Shown here piece after piece: positions 46,152 through 64,000 of a DNA stretch of 64,000 nucleotides. The first letter of the stretch is position 1. Each line of letters opens with the position of its first letter. Below the pieces are notes generated by a model that saw only the letters and a program-made list of their open reading frames with translations, was not told where the DNA came from and ran no database searches. Source of the stretch: a virus. Location: the IMG/VR virus record IMGVR_UViG_3300047322_000608, positions 1 to 64,000 of that record. One strand, 5' to 3'. Both the position numbers and the translations under genes were made by a program.

Positions 46152-47423
46152 TTACTTCGCTTTGAACGTCTTGATTGCCGCGCCAATACCCTTCTTGTTC
46201 GACGTGAAGAAGGATGCCTTGTCGTCCGGCACATCCTCCCACCGGTTCGGCGGAGTCGCTTTGAACCAGGGCATCGGCGTGCTCTTCCCCCAGTTTTTGA
46301 AGTCGTCGAACGTGTAACCCATTTCCAGGATGACGTCGCGCAGCTTAGCCTGGGCATCCGTGATGACGGGCTGCGGCGGCTCCGGTTTGGTTTCTTGAAC
46401 AGGCTCAGTCGCAGGTTCAGTCTGCAACTCAGGCGGCAACGTGGCAGGTTCTGGTTCGGGCTCGGGTGCAATGGTGATAGCACTGACCTGAGTCGTTGGC
46501 GGCTCGGCGTGACCCGTGACATTCGTTTGCGCGGGCTCGGGTTCAGACGGTTTGGTTTCAGGAACGACCGCTGCGGGAGCTGGCGCAGGCTTCGTCTTGG
46601 CTTCCTTCTTGGGATTTACCTTCTGCTCTGGCTGCTCTTGTTCCTTCTTCGCGGGATGTTCGAACAGTGGCTTGGTTGGCTCGAGTAACGGGAACGCCTC
46701 GTCAACGGTCTGGTCCCCTTCCTTGATAGCCGTCCTGAGACCGGTCAGCGTTTCCAGTTGCTCCAGTCCGACGTCCTCTTCGCCCACCACTCCGAGCACG
46801 GCGAACACCCTAGCCTTGTCGATCTTTAAGCTGGTAACCCATGACATGGCTTTGGTCCGTCGAATCTTTAATGTCTCCGCCGTGCCAATTGCAACAAGCT
46901 TCGCTTTCTCGATAAGCGGCTTGAGTAGGGCCTTCGGCACAACCCGGAAGATCGCGTCCCTCAACGCCTTGCTGATCGTCGCGTTCGCGATCATGATGGC
47001 CATATCCTCGTTGTATGGCCTACCGTCCGAGTAGGTTGTCTTGGCTTGCTTCTCGACCGCAATGAAGTTGTTCGTCTCCAGGTCGTGGCAGACCGCGCGC
47101 ACACTCACCCTGGTTGGAGTGTAGCCTGAGATTTGAACGGCGCTTCTCAAGTTGCCGTAGCAGGAGGCAACGATCTCTGCCATCCGGATGCTCTCGCCTT
47201 CGATCGCTTTACCGCCACGGGTGATCTTGAACAGGCAGCTCGCCGCGGTGTCTTCGTCAAGCGTCACCATCGCCTCAGCCCGTTTGTAAAACTGCTGGAG
47301 GCTTCTCGGGAATTGGTGGGCTGTGCTGATCTGAACGTCGATCTCCGCTCTGGTGATGCTCTCGATCGGAGCGACTTCAAGCTCGAACTTCCCGTCTTTA
47401 ACTTCTTCGGTCTCGTTATTCAT
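46152..47423 (-). CDS. Single-strand annealing/recombination protein candidate
   Basis: 423 aa from ATG 47423, right after the stop of the RHH gene (TAATATG). Residues 40-220 contain a block I recall from phage recombination cassettes: LFKITRGGKAIEGESIRMAEIVASCYGNLRSAVQISGYTPTRVSVRAVCHDLETNNF, EDMAIMIANATISKALRDAIFRVVPKALLKPLIEKA. A long Pro/Glu/Thr-rich disordered linker (260-370) leads to a small C-terminal domain. Followed by a PD-(D/E)XK nuclease, the usual annealase-exonuclease pairing. The assignment rests on context and remembered pattern, so it is provisional. Confidence 0.55.
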   Translation of the reverse strand: MNNETEEVKDGKFELEVAPIESITRAEIDVQISTAHQFPRSLQQFYKRAEAMVTLDEDTAASCLFKITRGGKAIEGESIRMAEIVASCYGNLRSAVQISGYTPTRVSVRAVCHDLETNNFIAVEKQAKTTYSDGRPYNEDMAIMIANATISKALRDAIFRVVPKALLKPLIEKAKLVAIGTAETLKIRRTKAMSWVTSLKIDKARVFAVLGVVGEEDVGLEQLETLTGLRTAIKEGDQTVDEAFPLLEPTKPLFEHPAKKEQEQPEQKVNPKKEAKTKPAPAPAAVVPETKPSEPEPAQTNVTGHAEPPTTQVSAITIAPEPEPEPATLPPELQTEPATEPVQETKPEPPQPVITDAQAKLRDVILEMGYTFDDFKNWGKSTPMPWFKATPPNRWEDVPDDKASFFTSNKKGIGAAIKTFKAK

Positions 47424-47424
47424 A

Positions 47425-47610
47425 TTATCGATTGCTGAGCTGTTCACGGATCGCATCGCTCACCGTAAACTTCCTGCCTGGATGGAGCTGCCGTTCCTTG
47501 ATGACGGCCTGGTTAAGGCTTTCCCAAACCTCAATCGGGATCTTGACCCCAACCGTTCTCATCGCTTGCTTGGGCGCGTCCGGCCCGGGTTTACTTTGCT
47601 TGCGTCTCAT
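47425..47610 (-). CDS. Ribbon-helix-helix transcriptional regulator candidate
   Basis: 61 aa. Basic N terminus, then an RTVGVKIPIEVWESLNQAVIKERQ strand-helix and KFTVSDAIREQL second helix: the compact Arc/CopG/MetJ-like RHH plan. It is the first gene of the minus arm and sits directly beside the divergent promoter-like sequences (47621-47701), so it is well placed to autoregulate and to control the switch between arms. DNA targets are unknown. Confidence 0.65.
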   Translation of the reverse strand: MRRKQSKPGPDAPKQAMRTVGVKIPIEVWESLNQAVIKERQLHPGRKFTVSDAIREQLSNR

Positions 47611-51938: not shown

Positions 51939-51953
51939 TCCTTCTTGTCTCAC

Positions 51954-52300
51954 GCCAAAAACACTACATCAACACAAATCTTACACGTAAGCAAAGGTAA
52001 GCCGAATCAGCATAGGAGTAATCAAAATAAGCACAGTTAGAGTAAGAGTTAGAAGAGAGAGTTCGTCGTCAACCTCAAACATGGCGTCATCCATTGAAAA
52101 CAGGCTGCACTACACTCACGGGTAACCGCAAACACAAGACGAATCACCATCCCAGATTTAGCCCCGGATTCCATGAAAGTTGAGAAGGGAGACCCATCAC
52201 AGCCAGCAGGACCACCCCGCCCTTCCCCGGGACACCCCCACCCAATCGGCTGCCAGGTCGATTCCAGGACTGAGCCACATTAAGCCGATAATGTCACCCG
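51954..52300. other. Intergenic segment, no gene seen
   Basis: About 350 nt between the minus-strand replication-like gene and the hairpin-rich leader. AT-richer than its surroundings at 51960-52080, with purine runs (e.g. AGAAGAGAGAG near 52051) that could favour melting. No convincing promoter, repeat array or open frame with start signals. It may hold the divergent promoters and possibly an origin, but nothing I see proves this. Confidence 0.4.
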
Positions 52301-52921
52301 ATGCTGCTGCTGCTGGCCTTTGCGACTATCGGCGCACAGTAGGCAACGTGGCGGTTGGCTTCCGATGGCAGGTTACAGACTGCCCACAGAGAGCCCGATA
52401 GCCCTACGTCAAACCCCGATGGAATCATCAGGAATGGGAGTTGGGTGAATACACCCAAGTCAGTAGGCAAGGTATAGTCTCTCCTAACATTCTTAGGCTG
52501 ACCTAACATTTGGGCTTCCTGGATCTCGGCTTTGAGTAACCTTTTGCCCCCTTTCCTTGTAACCTTGGCTTGGGAGTAGTGTAGCCGGTCGCTCGTTTGA
52601 GCGTTTACCTGACTCGTTTGAGTCAAGCGGCGGTCCTTCCGGTGTCTCGGGTTGAACTGAGCGCAGGTGTGGGCGGCAGGGGTCGAAAGGCCTGCCATGG
52701 GATTACCACGGGGTTTGCCGTAGTTTCCGAGCGTATCGCGATAACCCGTCAAGGCGAAGCAAGGTCGAAACGGTCTTAGATACTCCAATTCCTAACGGGA
52801 TACAGTGGGAACTCACAAGCTTAACGTAGCCCAGTTACTCGTTTGAGTAGCTGGTCGGTGACAAGCCCGGGGAAACAATACGGAGTCAAGCTTAACGATA
52901 GGAACAAGATACGAGGAATAT
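52300..52921 (+). ncRNA. Candidate large structured RNA/leader
   Basis: About 620 nt without a credible gene but dense in hairpins: GGCAG/CTGCC (52367-52384), TTGGGTG/CACCCAA (52441-52458), CCTAA/TTAGG (52483-52497), GGCAGG/CCTGCC (52675-52696), palindrome TATCGCGATA (52734-52743), and three stems sharing the core CTCGTTTGAG (52590-52603, 52610-52625, 52831-52854) whose outer pairs vary but stay paired. The last is a 10-bp stem including one G-U. Direct repeats: CAGTAGGCAA at 52337 and 52461, CCTAACATT at 52483 and 52502, CAAGCTTAACG at 52816 and 52887. It ends at the ribosome-binding element of the 52922 gene, so it could be a long 5' leader or an independent ornate RNA. Confidence 0.45.
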
Positions 52922-53350
52922 ATGTCAGCAACCAGTTTGATCAGTTTCGACGCAAGCGCCAACGCGGTAACGTCTTACAACGAGAAGATGAAAACCACTA
53001 CCTTGCGCTTGCTTACGGCGAAGGAGTTCAAGACGGCGCGTGGGCTCAAGGGGAACGCCGCTTCGGTGGCTTACAATGCCTACATTCGGGAGCATGGTCT
53101 GGCGAACACGGCGGGTTTGGCGGCGGCGCTCACGTCGGGTGAGTTGTTGGTTCGTTCGGCGAGGGACAGCTCGAAGTCCCTGAACGTGTCGTTTGTCAAG
53201 AAGTCTGCCATCAAGGACCCGGCCGTGAAGTCTGCCCCTGCCCCCGAAGTCACGGCTCTGGAGACTGAAGTTGCCAACCTGAAGGCTATGCTGGCTGGGC
53301 TTGGCGCGAAAGCGGAAGAGATTGCGGCGGCGCGCCCGAGCGCGGTGTAG
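52922..53350 (+). CDS. Hypothetical protein ahead of the AAA module
   Basis: 142 aa. N-terminal strands, then TLRLLTAKEFKTARGLKGNAASVAYNAYIREHGLANTAGLAAALTSGELLVRSARDSSKSLNVSFVKKSA, a C-terminal helix (EVTALETEVANLKAMLAGLGAKAEEIAAARP) likely to form a coiled coil. A GGAACAAGATACGA ribosome-binding element precedes the ATG. Followed by a strong hairpin and the AAA ATPase gene; a substrate or adaptor of that ATPase is possible. No family recognised. Confidence 0.65.
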   Translation: MSATSLISFDASANAVTSYNEKMKTTTLRLLTAKEFKTARGLKGNAASVAYNAYIREHGLANTAGLAAALTSGELLVRSARDSSKSLNVSFVKKSAIKDPAVKSAPAPEVTALETEVANLKAMLAGLGAKAEEIAAARPSAV

Positions 53351-53425: not shown

Positions 53426-53459
53426 TAGAGTCCGTTTAACCTGGAACAAGTACGAACGT

Positions 53460-54356
53460 ATGCAAGACATGACTGCGCTGGCGGAGCAAATCCGGCAGCG
53501 TATTCTCGCGTCTCAGCCTGCCGCGGAAGTGCCTCGGAAGGCTGGGGATGCGGGAGTTGCTGCCCCTTTGGGAAGCCAGAGGCAGCATTACAAGTTCCCG
53601 TTGTTGCTGGCGGCCGTGGCAAGTGGCGTGGACGCCATTGCCCTGGTTGGTCCGGCTGGAACGGGAAAGACGACAGCGGCGCATTCGTGCGCCAAGCTGC
53701 TGGGCAGGCGCTTTGAGCCTACCAGCTTCGGTCCGACCACGTCCAAGGCTGACTTGTTCGGCTTTGTGGACGCGAACGGGGTCTATCGTGACTCCGCTTT
53801 AGTGCGAGCTGCCAGGGATGGTGGCGTGTTCCTGGGGGACGAGCTTGATGCTGGTCATCCTGGGGTTGTTACGGGCCTGAACATGGTTCTGGCCAACGGC
53901 GTGTTCGGCATTCCGACCGGGGTGCTCGAGAAGCACGCGGAGTTCGTTCCCATCTTCGGGATGAACACGTACGGGACCGGGGCGAACCGGCAATACGTGG
54001 GCAGGAACCAACTGGACGCTGCGAGCCTGGACCGGATGGCTGTGATCGAATGGGATTTGGACTGCGGGTTAGAAGCGGCCATGGTCGGGGTGAACGGGGT
54101 GCAATCGCCTGCGTTCGATCTGGGCAAGCACGGGACCATGACAGCGCCGCAGTGGTTGGCGCGGGTTTGGTCCGTCCGGAAAGCGATTGAATTGCTGGGG
54201 GTCCGGCACATCGTTAGCCCGCGGTGCTCGCAGAACGGCATCAAGCTGTTCCGGGCTGGCGTGGGCAAGGCGCACGTCCAGGAAATGGTGCTCTGGAAAG
54301 GGATGGACGCGGAGACCCGGGAACGGGTTGAAGCCAAGGTAAAGGAGATCCTGTGA
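53460..54356 (+). CDS. MoxR-type AAA+ ATPase
   Basis: 298 aa from ATG 53460, chosen because GGAACAAGTACGA precedes it. Walker A GPAGTGKT at 64-71, Walker B VFLGDELD at about 123-130, a pre-sensor insert (SKADLFGFVDANGVYRDSALVRAARDGG, the typical MoxR loop with GxxD), sensor 1 FGMNTYG near 166-172, and LDRM with an Arg finger at about 192. MoxR ATPases act as chaperones or remodelers with a VWA-domain partner; the next gene is such a candidate. The longer in-frame reading from 53301 overlaps the hairpin and is rejected. Confidence 0.85.
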   Translation: MQDMTALAEQIRQRILASQPAAEVPRKAGDAGVAAPLGSQRQHYKFPLLLAAVASGVDAIALVGPAGTGKTTAAHSCAKLLGRRFEPTSFGPTTSKADLFGFVDANGVYRDSALVRAARDGGVFLGDELDAGHPGVVTGLNMVLANGVFGIPTGVLEKHAEFVPIFGMNTYGTGANRQYVGRNQLDAASLDRMAVIEWDLDCGLEAAMVGVNGVQSPAFDLGKHGTMTAPQWLARVWSVRKAIELLGVRHIVSPRCSQNGIKLFRAGVGKAHVQEMVLWKGMDAETRERVEAKVKEIL

Positions 54357-55171
54357 GCGCCAAGACCGGGGTAACGGTTGAGCGCCGGGCCTTTACGGGA
54401 TGGCATCAATTCGTGGAACAGGTCCGCAAGCCGATGTCCTGGGACGTGGCCGGCCAGAGCACGGCGGAGCGTTCGTATAGCTGGGCTTTAGGGGCTTCCT
54501 ACGACGATGCGCTCAAGCTGGCGACTACGGGCTGGGCGGAGGGGTTCAAGGCTGTCTCCCTCAAAGCGCAGGCGATCTGCAAGGCGCACGGCGGGCTGGA
54601 CTTGAGCCCGCGCTTTGCGGAATCTGGCGACGAAGTGGACGTCGGGCTATTCCTGGCGGATGAGCCGGAGTGCATGGTCGAGTATCCGATGGAGCCCAAG
54701 CAGCGTCCGGTCGTCAAGATTGTGGTCTCCGCTTCGTTCTCGGGCGGGATTGCCGCGGAAGAGATTTACAACCGCGGTGCGGCGATTCTGGCGGCGATAG
54801 ATCTCCTGGAAGGGGCTGGGGTCCGGGTCGAGGTTGACCTGGACATGGGAACGGAGACCGGGCGCCGGCAGTTCATCCGCACGATACCGCTCAAAGCGGC
54901 CAACGACGCGCTGGACCGGGACAAGCTGGCCTTTGCGATCTGCCATCCGGCGACGTTGCGGAGGCTGATCTTCCGACTGCACGAGCAGGACGGGGTGGAT
55001 GCGTTCGAGCGGATGGGCGGGTGCCAATACGGCCATCCGATCAATCCGGCGCCGCAGGACGGGGCGATCGTGATCAACGCGCTCACCATGAGCAACGAGG
55101 GCGAGTTCCGGACGATGGAGCAAGCGCAGGCGTTCGCGGAGCGGGTCCTGGCGGAAGTAAGCGGCGATTGA
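54353..55171 (+). CDS. VWA-like partner of the AAA ATPase
   Basis: 272 aa, GTG start in a GTGA overlap with the ATPase gene and preceded by AAGGAGATCCT. N-terminal 100 residues are helical (SWALGASYDDALKLATTGWAEGFKAVSLKAQAI). The centre has a Rossmann-like strand-helix run, VVKIVVSASFSGGIAAEEIYNRGAAILAAIDLLEGAGVRVEVDL, which resembles a degenerate von Willebrand A fold without an obvious DxSxS metal site. I recall similar phage proteins paired with AAA ATPases. Likely the effector of the ATPase; the target is unknown. Confidence 0.6.
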   Translation: MSAKTGVTVERRAFTGWHQFVEQVRKPMSWDVAGQSTAERSYSWALGASYDDALKLATTGWAEGFKAVSLKAQAICKAHGGLDLSPRFAESGDEVDVGLFLADEPECMVEYPMEPKQRPVVKIVVSASFSGGIAAEEIYNRGAAILAAIDLLEGAGVRVEVDLDMGTETGRRQFIRTIPLKAANDALDRDKLAFAICHPATLRRLIFRLHEQDGVDAFERMGGCQYGHPINPAPQDGAIVINALTMSNEGEFRTMEQAQAFAERVLAEVSGD

Positions 55172-56220: not shown

Positions 56221-56359
56221 GCATGGTGGGGTCTCAAAACCTCATGCCTCTGGACTCCAAACCCGGAGGACAACATGCACAGCGCCATTGCTTCGCTTTC
56301 TGCCTCCCAATTGGGAAGGTGGTAATCGGAATCGGTAGAACAAAGGAACAAGTACGAGT
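56221..56359 (+). promoter_or_regulatory. Structured leader with sequestered Shine-Dalgarno
   Basis: Two adjacent stems: TGGGGT/ACCTCA (56227-56232 with 56239-56244) and CCTCTGG/CCGGAGG (56247-56253 with 56263-56269, one G-T, loop 9). The second hides the GGAGG that serves a short frame at 56275. The segment ends in AAAGGAACAAGTACGA before the 56360 gene. It looks like a switch or attenuator, not a tRNA: no T arm is present. Confidence 0.4.
56275..56325 (+). CDS. Possible 16-aa leader peptide
   Basis: ATG 56275 lies 5 nt after GGAGG and encodes a 16-residue Ser/Ala-rich peptide ending LGRW before TAA. The Shine-Dalgarno is inside a 7-bp hairpin, so translation would depend on its opening. 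Real or chance is undecided. Confidence 0.3.
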   Translation: MHSAIASLSASQLGRW

Positions 56360-58838: not shown

Positions 58839-58876
58839 GCAGGCTTCCGACGTGTTCGGTGGCCTGGAAAGGAACA

Positions 58877-59563
58877 GTGACGAAAACAAAGAACAAGAAA
58901 CTCAAGTTTAGCGTGGAAGACCTGCGCAAGCTGAACCCCTGCCACGAAGCGCTGGCGTGGGTTGATAAGCAGCATGGCGAGTCTCCATCGGATCTGTGGC
59001 AGATGTGCCCTCGATCGGATTGGATGCTATGGCTGCTTGCACGGGTTCGACCGTTGTCCAAGCCGGAAGCGGTGACATTGGCGTGCCGGTTCGCGCTCAA
59101 AGTCCTGACGGTATTCGAGACCCGCTATCCATACGATAAGCGCCCGCGGCAGGCGATTGAGGCAGCTCAGGCGTGTCTGAAAGACCCGTCTGCTTCTGCT
59201 GCTTATGCTGCTGCTTCTGCTGCTTCTGCTGCTTATGCTGCTGCTGCTGATGCTGCTGCTGCTGATGCTTCTGCTGCTGCTGCTGCTTATGCTGCTGCTG
59301 ATGCTGCTGCTGATGCTTCTGCTTATGCTTCTGCTTATGCTGCTTATGCTGCTGATGCTGCTGCTGATGCTGCTGATGCTGCTGCTTATGCTTATGCTGC
59401 TGATGCTGCTGATGCTTCTGCTGCTTATGCTGCTGATGCTGCTGCTGCTGCTTATGCTGCTGATGCTGCTGCTGATGCTGCTGATGCTGCTGCTGATGCT
59501 GCTGCTGCTCGCAAGAAGCAGGCCGACATTATTCGCGAGATCATCGGCAACCCATTCAAGTGA
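58877..59563 (+). CDS. Imm5-like Ala-rich repeat protein
   Basis: 228 aa, GTG at 58877 directly after AAAGGAACA; an in-frame GTG at 58859 is less likely. Residues 1-100 match the N-terminal pattern of Imm-5-like putative immunity proteins: LRKLNPCHEALAWVDKQ, LWQMCPRSDWMLWLLARV, AVTLACRFALKVLTVFE. Residues 104-210 are low-complexity Ala with Tyr, Asp and Ser only, then ARKKQADIIREIIGNPFK. The repeat is encoded almost only by GCT, TAT, GAT and TCT codons (59,190-59,515), unlike the GC-rich codons before it, so it is prone to slippage. Function not established. Confidence 0.65.
   Translation: MTKTKNKKLKFSVEDLRKLNPCHEALAWVDKQHGESPSDLWQMCPRSDWMLWLLARVRPLSKPEAVTLACRFALKVLTVFETRYPYDKRPRQAIEAAQACLKDPSASAAYAAASAASAAYAAAADAAAADASAAAAAYAAADAAADASAYASAYAAYAADAAADAADAAAYAYAADAADASAAYAADAAAAAYAADAAADAADAAADAAAARKKQADIIREIIGNPFK
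59190..59515 (+). repeat. GCT trinucleotide-rich microsatellite-like tract
   Basis: About 325 nt made of GCT codons broken only by TAT, GAT and TCT codons, in frame with the Ala-rich protein. It is the lowest-complexity stretch in the window and creates spurious Leu-rich (+) and Ser-rich (-) frames. Confidence 0.9.
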
Positions 59564-63517: not shown

Positions 63518-64000
63518 ATGAGTGATGGCAAATTGATCGATGGCGTCCTGGTCTGCATGACCAAGTCGTGCGGGATAGCCGGGTCCAAGGTGGACAAGGA
63601 GATGACCGCCGAAGTCGAGGACGATAAGAACGCCGGCCACGGAGCTGGCACCTGGAGCAACAAACTCTTCCCGCCTAAAGCGTGCGGCAAGAAGAACAGC
63701 TTCACCAACCTGCGAACGCACATGAGCCAGATGTACCACTGGCACATGGCCAATTCGTTCGTGTTCGAGAACGAACTGTGGCGGATCCTTCCAACCAAAA
63801 GAGTGGAAGCCTACCGCCAGGTCGTGGAAGTGGCAGGCAAGGCGACAGCACACACGCTATTGAACGAGTTCCTGGACGATTACGAGAACCTGAAGGATCT
63901 GGCGCGCAGGCCGCAACCGGACGGACGCGGCGAGTTGTTCAAGGACGACGATTACCCGTCCAAGGAAACGATTCGAGCCAAGTTCTTCTACGACGTCAGC
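63518..64000 (+). CDS. Partial gene running off the window
   Basis: 161 codons open to the window end, ATG 63518, with AAAGGCAACAGTACGAT before it. Beta/alpha start (GKLIDGVLVCMTKSCGIAGSKVDKEMTAEVEDDKNAG), then helical (SFTNLRTHMSQMYHWHMANSFVFENELWRILP) and a charged end with ELFKDDDYPSKETIRAKFFYDV, reminiscent of DUF3150-like phage proteins. Identity tentative; the C terminus is missing. Confidence 0.6.
   Translation, partial: MSDGKLIDGVLVCMTKSCGIAGSKVDKEMTAEVEDDKNAGHGAGTWSNKLFPPKACGKKNSFTNLRTHMSQMYHWHMANSFVFENELWRILPTKRVEAYRQVVEVAGKATAHTLLNEFLDDYENLKDLARRPQPDGRGELFKDDDYPSKETIRAKFFYDVS

Follow-up and report, generated by a model that had tools for sequence, protein, structure and literature searches.

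A predicted type-P1 twister ribozyme closing the candidate long 5' leader before a phage operon

A predicted twister ribozyme closes the gene-free region

The window analysed here, the first 64,000 nt of a 75.9-kb viral record, contains a gene-free region flanked by a minus-strand gene and a plus-strand operon. We propose, with a probability of about 0.83, that it serves a phage operon as a long 5' leader and that it ends in a type-P1 twister self-cleaving ribozyme (52815-52896, plus strand). Judged by its match to the Rfam family RF03160, its match to a model of viral twisters (R1) and its minimum-energy fold, the last 80 bases of the gene-free stretch are a twister ribozyme, a known class of self-cutting RNA. 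The original prediction had placed a large structured RNA at 52300-52921 and recognised no known class in it, a claim that does not hold for the 3' end, which both RF03160 and R1 assign to the twister class. The stretch was described as gene-free over 620 nt; codon usage indeed indicates non-coding DNA on both strands, but its true extent is 51954-52921. The part upstream of the ribozyme (51954-52816, no strand assigned), delimited by codon score, is the candidate leader. A minus-strand open reading frame within it (52294-52788) was considered as a gene and rejected as probably non-coding, with a codon score of -0.01 compared with a gene mean of 0.34 and with -0.29 (sd 0.22) for other frames.

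An Rfam scan of the full window at the curated cut-offs gave no match. When the region was searched using cmscan at a relaxed threshold, twister-P1 (RF03160) matched at 52819-52891 on the plus strand with 37.5 bits (E 2.5e-6), which falls under the curated cut-off of 67.2 bits for this family, so that the twister is missed by default cmscan; the Rfam check proposed with the original prediction was thus negative at the gathering cut-offs and positive at the relaxed threshold. The cut-off is no argument against the window twister, because Rfam twister scores in five phage contigs range from 27.7 to 57.9 bits and even the clear ones (45-58 bits) stay below 67.2. Type-P1 twisters were further collected by a core-pattern scan of viral contigs and parsed, and 48 of them were aligned (alignment A1) without the window sequence. 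As the pattern fixes the core and the twisters were kept partly by their pairing, core invariance and the percentage of paired positions in this set are biased upward; the window's Rfam match is independent of how the 48 were selected. The covariance model R1, built from these 48 twisters of other viral contigs with the window sequence excluded, was run over the window and the remainder of the record and returned a single match in the 75.9 kb, at 52815-52896 (32.8 bits, E 2.4e-7). In the relatives, P1, P2 and T1 covary strongly (160 double-changed cells compared with 46.5 after shuffling; covariation score 0.574 compared with 0.167). A second twister or degenerate copy at 52579-52628 was also considered, and an unfiltered search gave no other hit above 5.2 bits.

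The minimum-energy fold is exactly the twister secondary structure with P1, P2, P3 and P4, and the essential stems P1, P2 and P4 form both in this structure and in the model alignment. All parts lie on the plus strand. By fold and alignment, stem P1 joins two AAGCUU strands (52817-52822 and 52888-52893), with U52822 either paired with A52888 or unpaired, and P2 pairs CGUA (52825-52828) with UACG (52879-52882). Stem P4 and its conserved catalytic loop L4 (UCGGUGACAAGCCCGG; 52855-52870) are placed by alignment, model and fold, and the T1 pseudoknot between L4 and L1 pairs GAC (52860-52862) with GUC (52885-52887). The conserved twister letters AA, GC, CGGU, CAAGCCCG, AAA and GAG are all found in the window sequence, and comparison with the invariant columns of A1 finds L1, L2 and L4 with their strongly conserved letters, and the U-A cleavage dinucleotide, in place. 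The optional stem-loop P3 (52831-52854; CCAGUUACUC-GUUU-GAGUAGCUGG) is recovered by Rfam, the R1 model and the fold; P3 of twisters is phylogenetically expendable (PMC5408937).

The window RNA thus shares with type-P1 twisters (RF03160) the stems P1, P2 and P4, the optional P3, the T1 pseudoknot, the conserved core letters and the U-A cleavage dinucleotide. It differs from them in its long, 10-bp P3, in its CGUA/UACG P2 (mostly UGCA/UGCA in other phage twisters), in its GAC/GUC T1 (CAC/GUG, CCC/GGG, GGC/GCC and others in relatives) and in ending an unusually long gene-free leader instead of lying in a short intergenic gap. Its 37.5-bit match is below that of most phage twisters, its P3 is long and three extra bases precede the 3' strand of P2. 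Such a score could be read as the mark of a decayed, inactive remnant, a reading we hold to be highly improbable given that no conserved core letter is missing and that every stem is preserved, as is the T1 pseudoknot. Moreover, P2 and T1 retain their pairing despite departing from the commonest phage bases, which decay would not give.

The predicted twister is placed just ahead of an operon

The first gene of the downstream operon (52922-53350, plus strand) encodes an orphan protein of 142 aa, which has no Pfam or PHROG match and no relative in phages, viral contigs or genome contigs. It is followed on the same strand by genes for an AAA_5 ATPase (phrog_249; 53460-54356) and a DUF7192 protein (phrog_1909; 54353-55171), both assigned by Pfam and PHROG. 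The ATG at 52922 lies 34 nt past the point where the P1 3' strand begins, and AGGA is the likely ribosome-binding site. Using simple scripts and simple gene calls, as also for the GC-skew and repeat statistics below, we found that 31 of the 47 viral twisters with enough sequence have, within 60 nt, a start codon on their own strand accompanied by a Shine-Dalgarno-like site, compared with 4/47 in the control on the opposite strand, upstream side, and 10.9% at random positions. The placement of the window twister before a start codon is therefore typical.

The phage contigs L048, L026, L105, L088, L049 and L021/L070 hold two to three twisters each, some of them before successive genes, and in L048 and L078 the same kind of AAA ATPase lies within about 5 kb. 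A Shine-Dalgarno-like sequence is located in or beside the P1 3' strand in 21 of the 31 start-near phage twisters (L016-L105), a count uncontrolled for base composition; in those twisters, but not in the window's own, cleavage could free a masked ribosome-binding site. Within the window, GGAACAAGTACGA occurs in exact copies at 53443-53455 and 56345-56357 (plus strand), just ahead of start codons, and in near copies at about 52903 and 63504. Its near matches number 29 compared with a mean of 12, above each of 100 shuffles, and it is possibly an extended ribosome-binding motif.

Predicted cleavage site and proposed mechanism

Applying the twister cleavage-site rule (PMC5408937) by homology to the consensus, we predict a cut between U52822 and A52823 on the plus strand. 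In the window twister and in the remaining three parsed ones whose T1 is GAC/GUC (L081, L019 and the first of L048), pairing is possible between the base before the cut and the leading A of the P1 3' strand; either register of P1 puts the conserved adenine at 52823 and hence yields the same predicted site. As a plausible mechanism, the leader would be transcribed and the RNA would fold into P1-P2-P3-P4 with the T1 pseudoknot, cutting itself between these two nucleotides during synthesis. Cleavage would produce a mature mRNA headed by the folded ribozyme, carrying a 5'-hydroxyl and beginning with AACGUAGCC, 99 nt ahead of the ATG at 52922, together with a separate upstream leader RNA bearing a 2',3'-cyclic phosphate end. 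The purpose might be a defined, protected mRNA 5' end, or an operon uncoupled from its leader; most likely, the ribozyme serves to define where the operon mRNA begins. A promoter search found no sigma-70-like site, and transcription of the whole leader is therefore assumed; we infer it, as we do ribozyme activity, and the cleavage itself is predicted by homology. Simple attenuation, considered as another function of the leader, is unsupported, no intrinsic-terminator-like site having been found there. Of the frames offered by the original prediction, a very long leader of the AAA module proves the best one, to which we add the predicted self-cut just before the first gene.

The closest experimental precedent is the HHphage hammerhead, a variant found in haloviruses HF1/HF2, which likewise cleaves itself a short way ahead of an operon's first gene and there appears to set the mRNA 5' end. 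It is separated by 13 nt from that gene, in an early operon, and the mapped 5' end of the mRNA falls no more than 3 nt from the cleavage site (PMC3088659). The halovirus element belongs to another ribozyme class, and its 5' end was mapped experimentally, whereas that of the window is predicted from sequence. Elsewhere in the window, a type II hammerhead-like motif (RF02276; 63387-63444, plus strand) lies in the gap before the ATG at 63518, scoring 28 bits with an E of 0.00077 when 301 bases were searched against all families and of 4.6e-5 when the record was searched against RF02276. With CCGAUGA instead of CUGAUGA in its core (U to C at position 4), the motif may be a variant or inactive. A CTG/ATG-rich tandem array (59190-59509, plus strand) lies within the open reading frame 58859-59563, which encodes an alanine-rich repeat, and the Rfam isrG match that the array gives is apparently spurious.

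Shared-core hairpins and the upstream leader

The original prediction highlighted three hairpins with a CTC-GTTT-GAG core (CTCGTTTGAG), all of which are present at the positions it gave, on the plus strand: CGCUC-GUUU-GAGCG with 5 bp (52590-52603), UGACUC-GUUU-GAGUCA with 6 bp (52610-52625) and a third with 10 bp including one G.U (52831-52854). Their occurrence exceeds chance, as three hairpins with one shared core arose in 0/1000 dinucleotide shuffles of the 968-nt intergenic region, and two with a shared core, the ribozyme being excluded, likewise in 0/1000. Because the twister fold occupies the 3' end, the third CTCGTTTGAG hairpin is P3, the same element; no other twister in the viral contigs carries CTCGTTTGAG in its P3. 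Perfect hairpins, with stems of 5 or more and loops of 3-8, are moderately enriched, with 12 counted compared with a shuffle mean of 5.5 (8/300 shuffles reach 12) and, leaving out the ribozyme, 11 compared with 5.0 (6/300). A 7-bp hairpin, UUGGGUG-AAUA-CACCCAA (52441-52458, plus strand), has a local z of -3.3 in a stretch chosen around it. The original prediction was right that the AAA module's leader contains structured RNA and that its hairpins exceed chance. Other parts of the claim find no confirmation. The proposed internal covariation compares hairpins within one molecule rather than between homologues, and the searches described below returned none for the upstream part. The direct repeats CAGTAGGCAA and CCTAACATT occur about as often as chance predicts, each shuffle giving some 2 nine-base and 0.5 ten-base repeat pairs, and CAAGCTTAACG is no independent repeat, its copies being the two strands of ribozyme P1, both of which it holds because AAGCTT is palindromic.

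Searches for relatives covered both the sequence and its gene neighbourhood. The upstream region had no homologue in a distant blastn search of 50,697 phage records or in a short-word blastn search of the fetched loci. A pattern scan of viral contigs for the CTCGTTTGAG double hairpin yielded none either, its 10 stretches being all unrelated and mostly simple repeats or coding DNA. With the 142-aa protein, the terminase and the DUF7192 protein as anchors, viral contigs yielded no relatives. The ATPase as anchor gave only distant relatives (35-37% identical) with no twister nearby; the protein at 46152-47456 gave 10, and at the loci fetched for them no further gene is shared with the window and no twister occurs.

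An alternative is that 52300-52822 forms a large structured noncoding RNA in its own right, of a new type, which the twister cuts free and whose 3' end it makes. In favour of this, the ribozyme follows a gene-free run of roughly 865 nt, atypical among phage twisters, many of which lie only tens of bases downstream of a gene; with the ribozyme left out, hairpins are still about twice as numerous as in shuffles, and two of them have an identical core. We nevertheless judge this reading unlikely. The 622 nt fold no better than shuffles (MFE z = 0.07), and 120-nt windows of the plus strand reveal no consistent excess of structure. At E values up to 10, the region gives no credible Rfam match besides twister; no homologue turned up in phage records or the searched viral contigs, and one sequence cannot give covariation. 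Membership of the GOLLD/ROOL/HEARO group, as originally suggested, is likewise unsupported, since the models of these families give no match at gathering cut-offs or at E up to 10 and no tRNA gene is found in the 64-kb window, whereas such RNAs frequently neighbour tRNA genes. With the large ornate RNAs GOLLD and ROOL (PMC12286853) the window has in common a long noncoding phage stretch with several hairpins, but it lacks a sequence or structure match, a tRNA island, found homologues and excess folding. The upstream hairpins are partly real but fall short of evidence for a new giant RNA class. The two upstream CUC-GUUU-GAG hairpins may, speculatively, share a binding protein with P3. A further version, in which the twister frees a phage noncoding RNA of about 500 nt with these hairpins and one protein could bind both this RNA and the ribozyme, thereby controlling cleavage, seems to us quite improbable.

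A DNA-level function deserves more weight. GC skew switches sign sharply at about 52.0-52.5 kb, with a cumulative minimum near 52 kb, although the genes at 49-51 kb are on the plus strand like those after 53 kb, a pattern that points to an origin or control region, either instead of the leader role or in addition to it. The upstream region might then be mainly a DNA control region, possibly a replication origin, between divergent genes (minus-strand start at 51953, plus-strand operon from 52922), with CTCGTTTGAG acting as protein-binding palindromes and not as RNA hairpins; two copies are indeed 21 bp apart, equal to two helical turns. However, the arms beyond the shared 10 bases differ and yet remain complementary (2, 3 and 7 more pairs, one G.U), a pattern expected for RNA and not for operators. 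One of the copies, the third, is part of the ribozyme, and no iteron array was found. We therefore consider this account possible but doubtful, and retain the twister-terminated operon leader as the preferred reading.

Implications for phage twisters

The Rfam twister-P1 cut-off conceals phage twisters. Phage twisters cluster before start codons, which makes their role, whether in mRNA 5'-end formation or in ribosome-site access, testable. For the region studied here, the claim of a new RNA class is replaced by a specific prediction, namely a single cut between U52822 and A52823.
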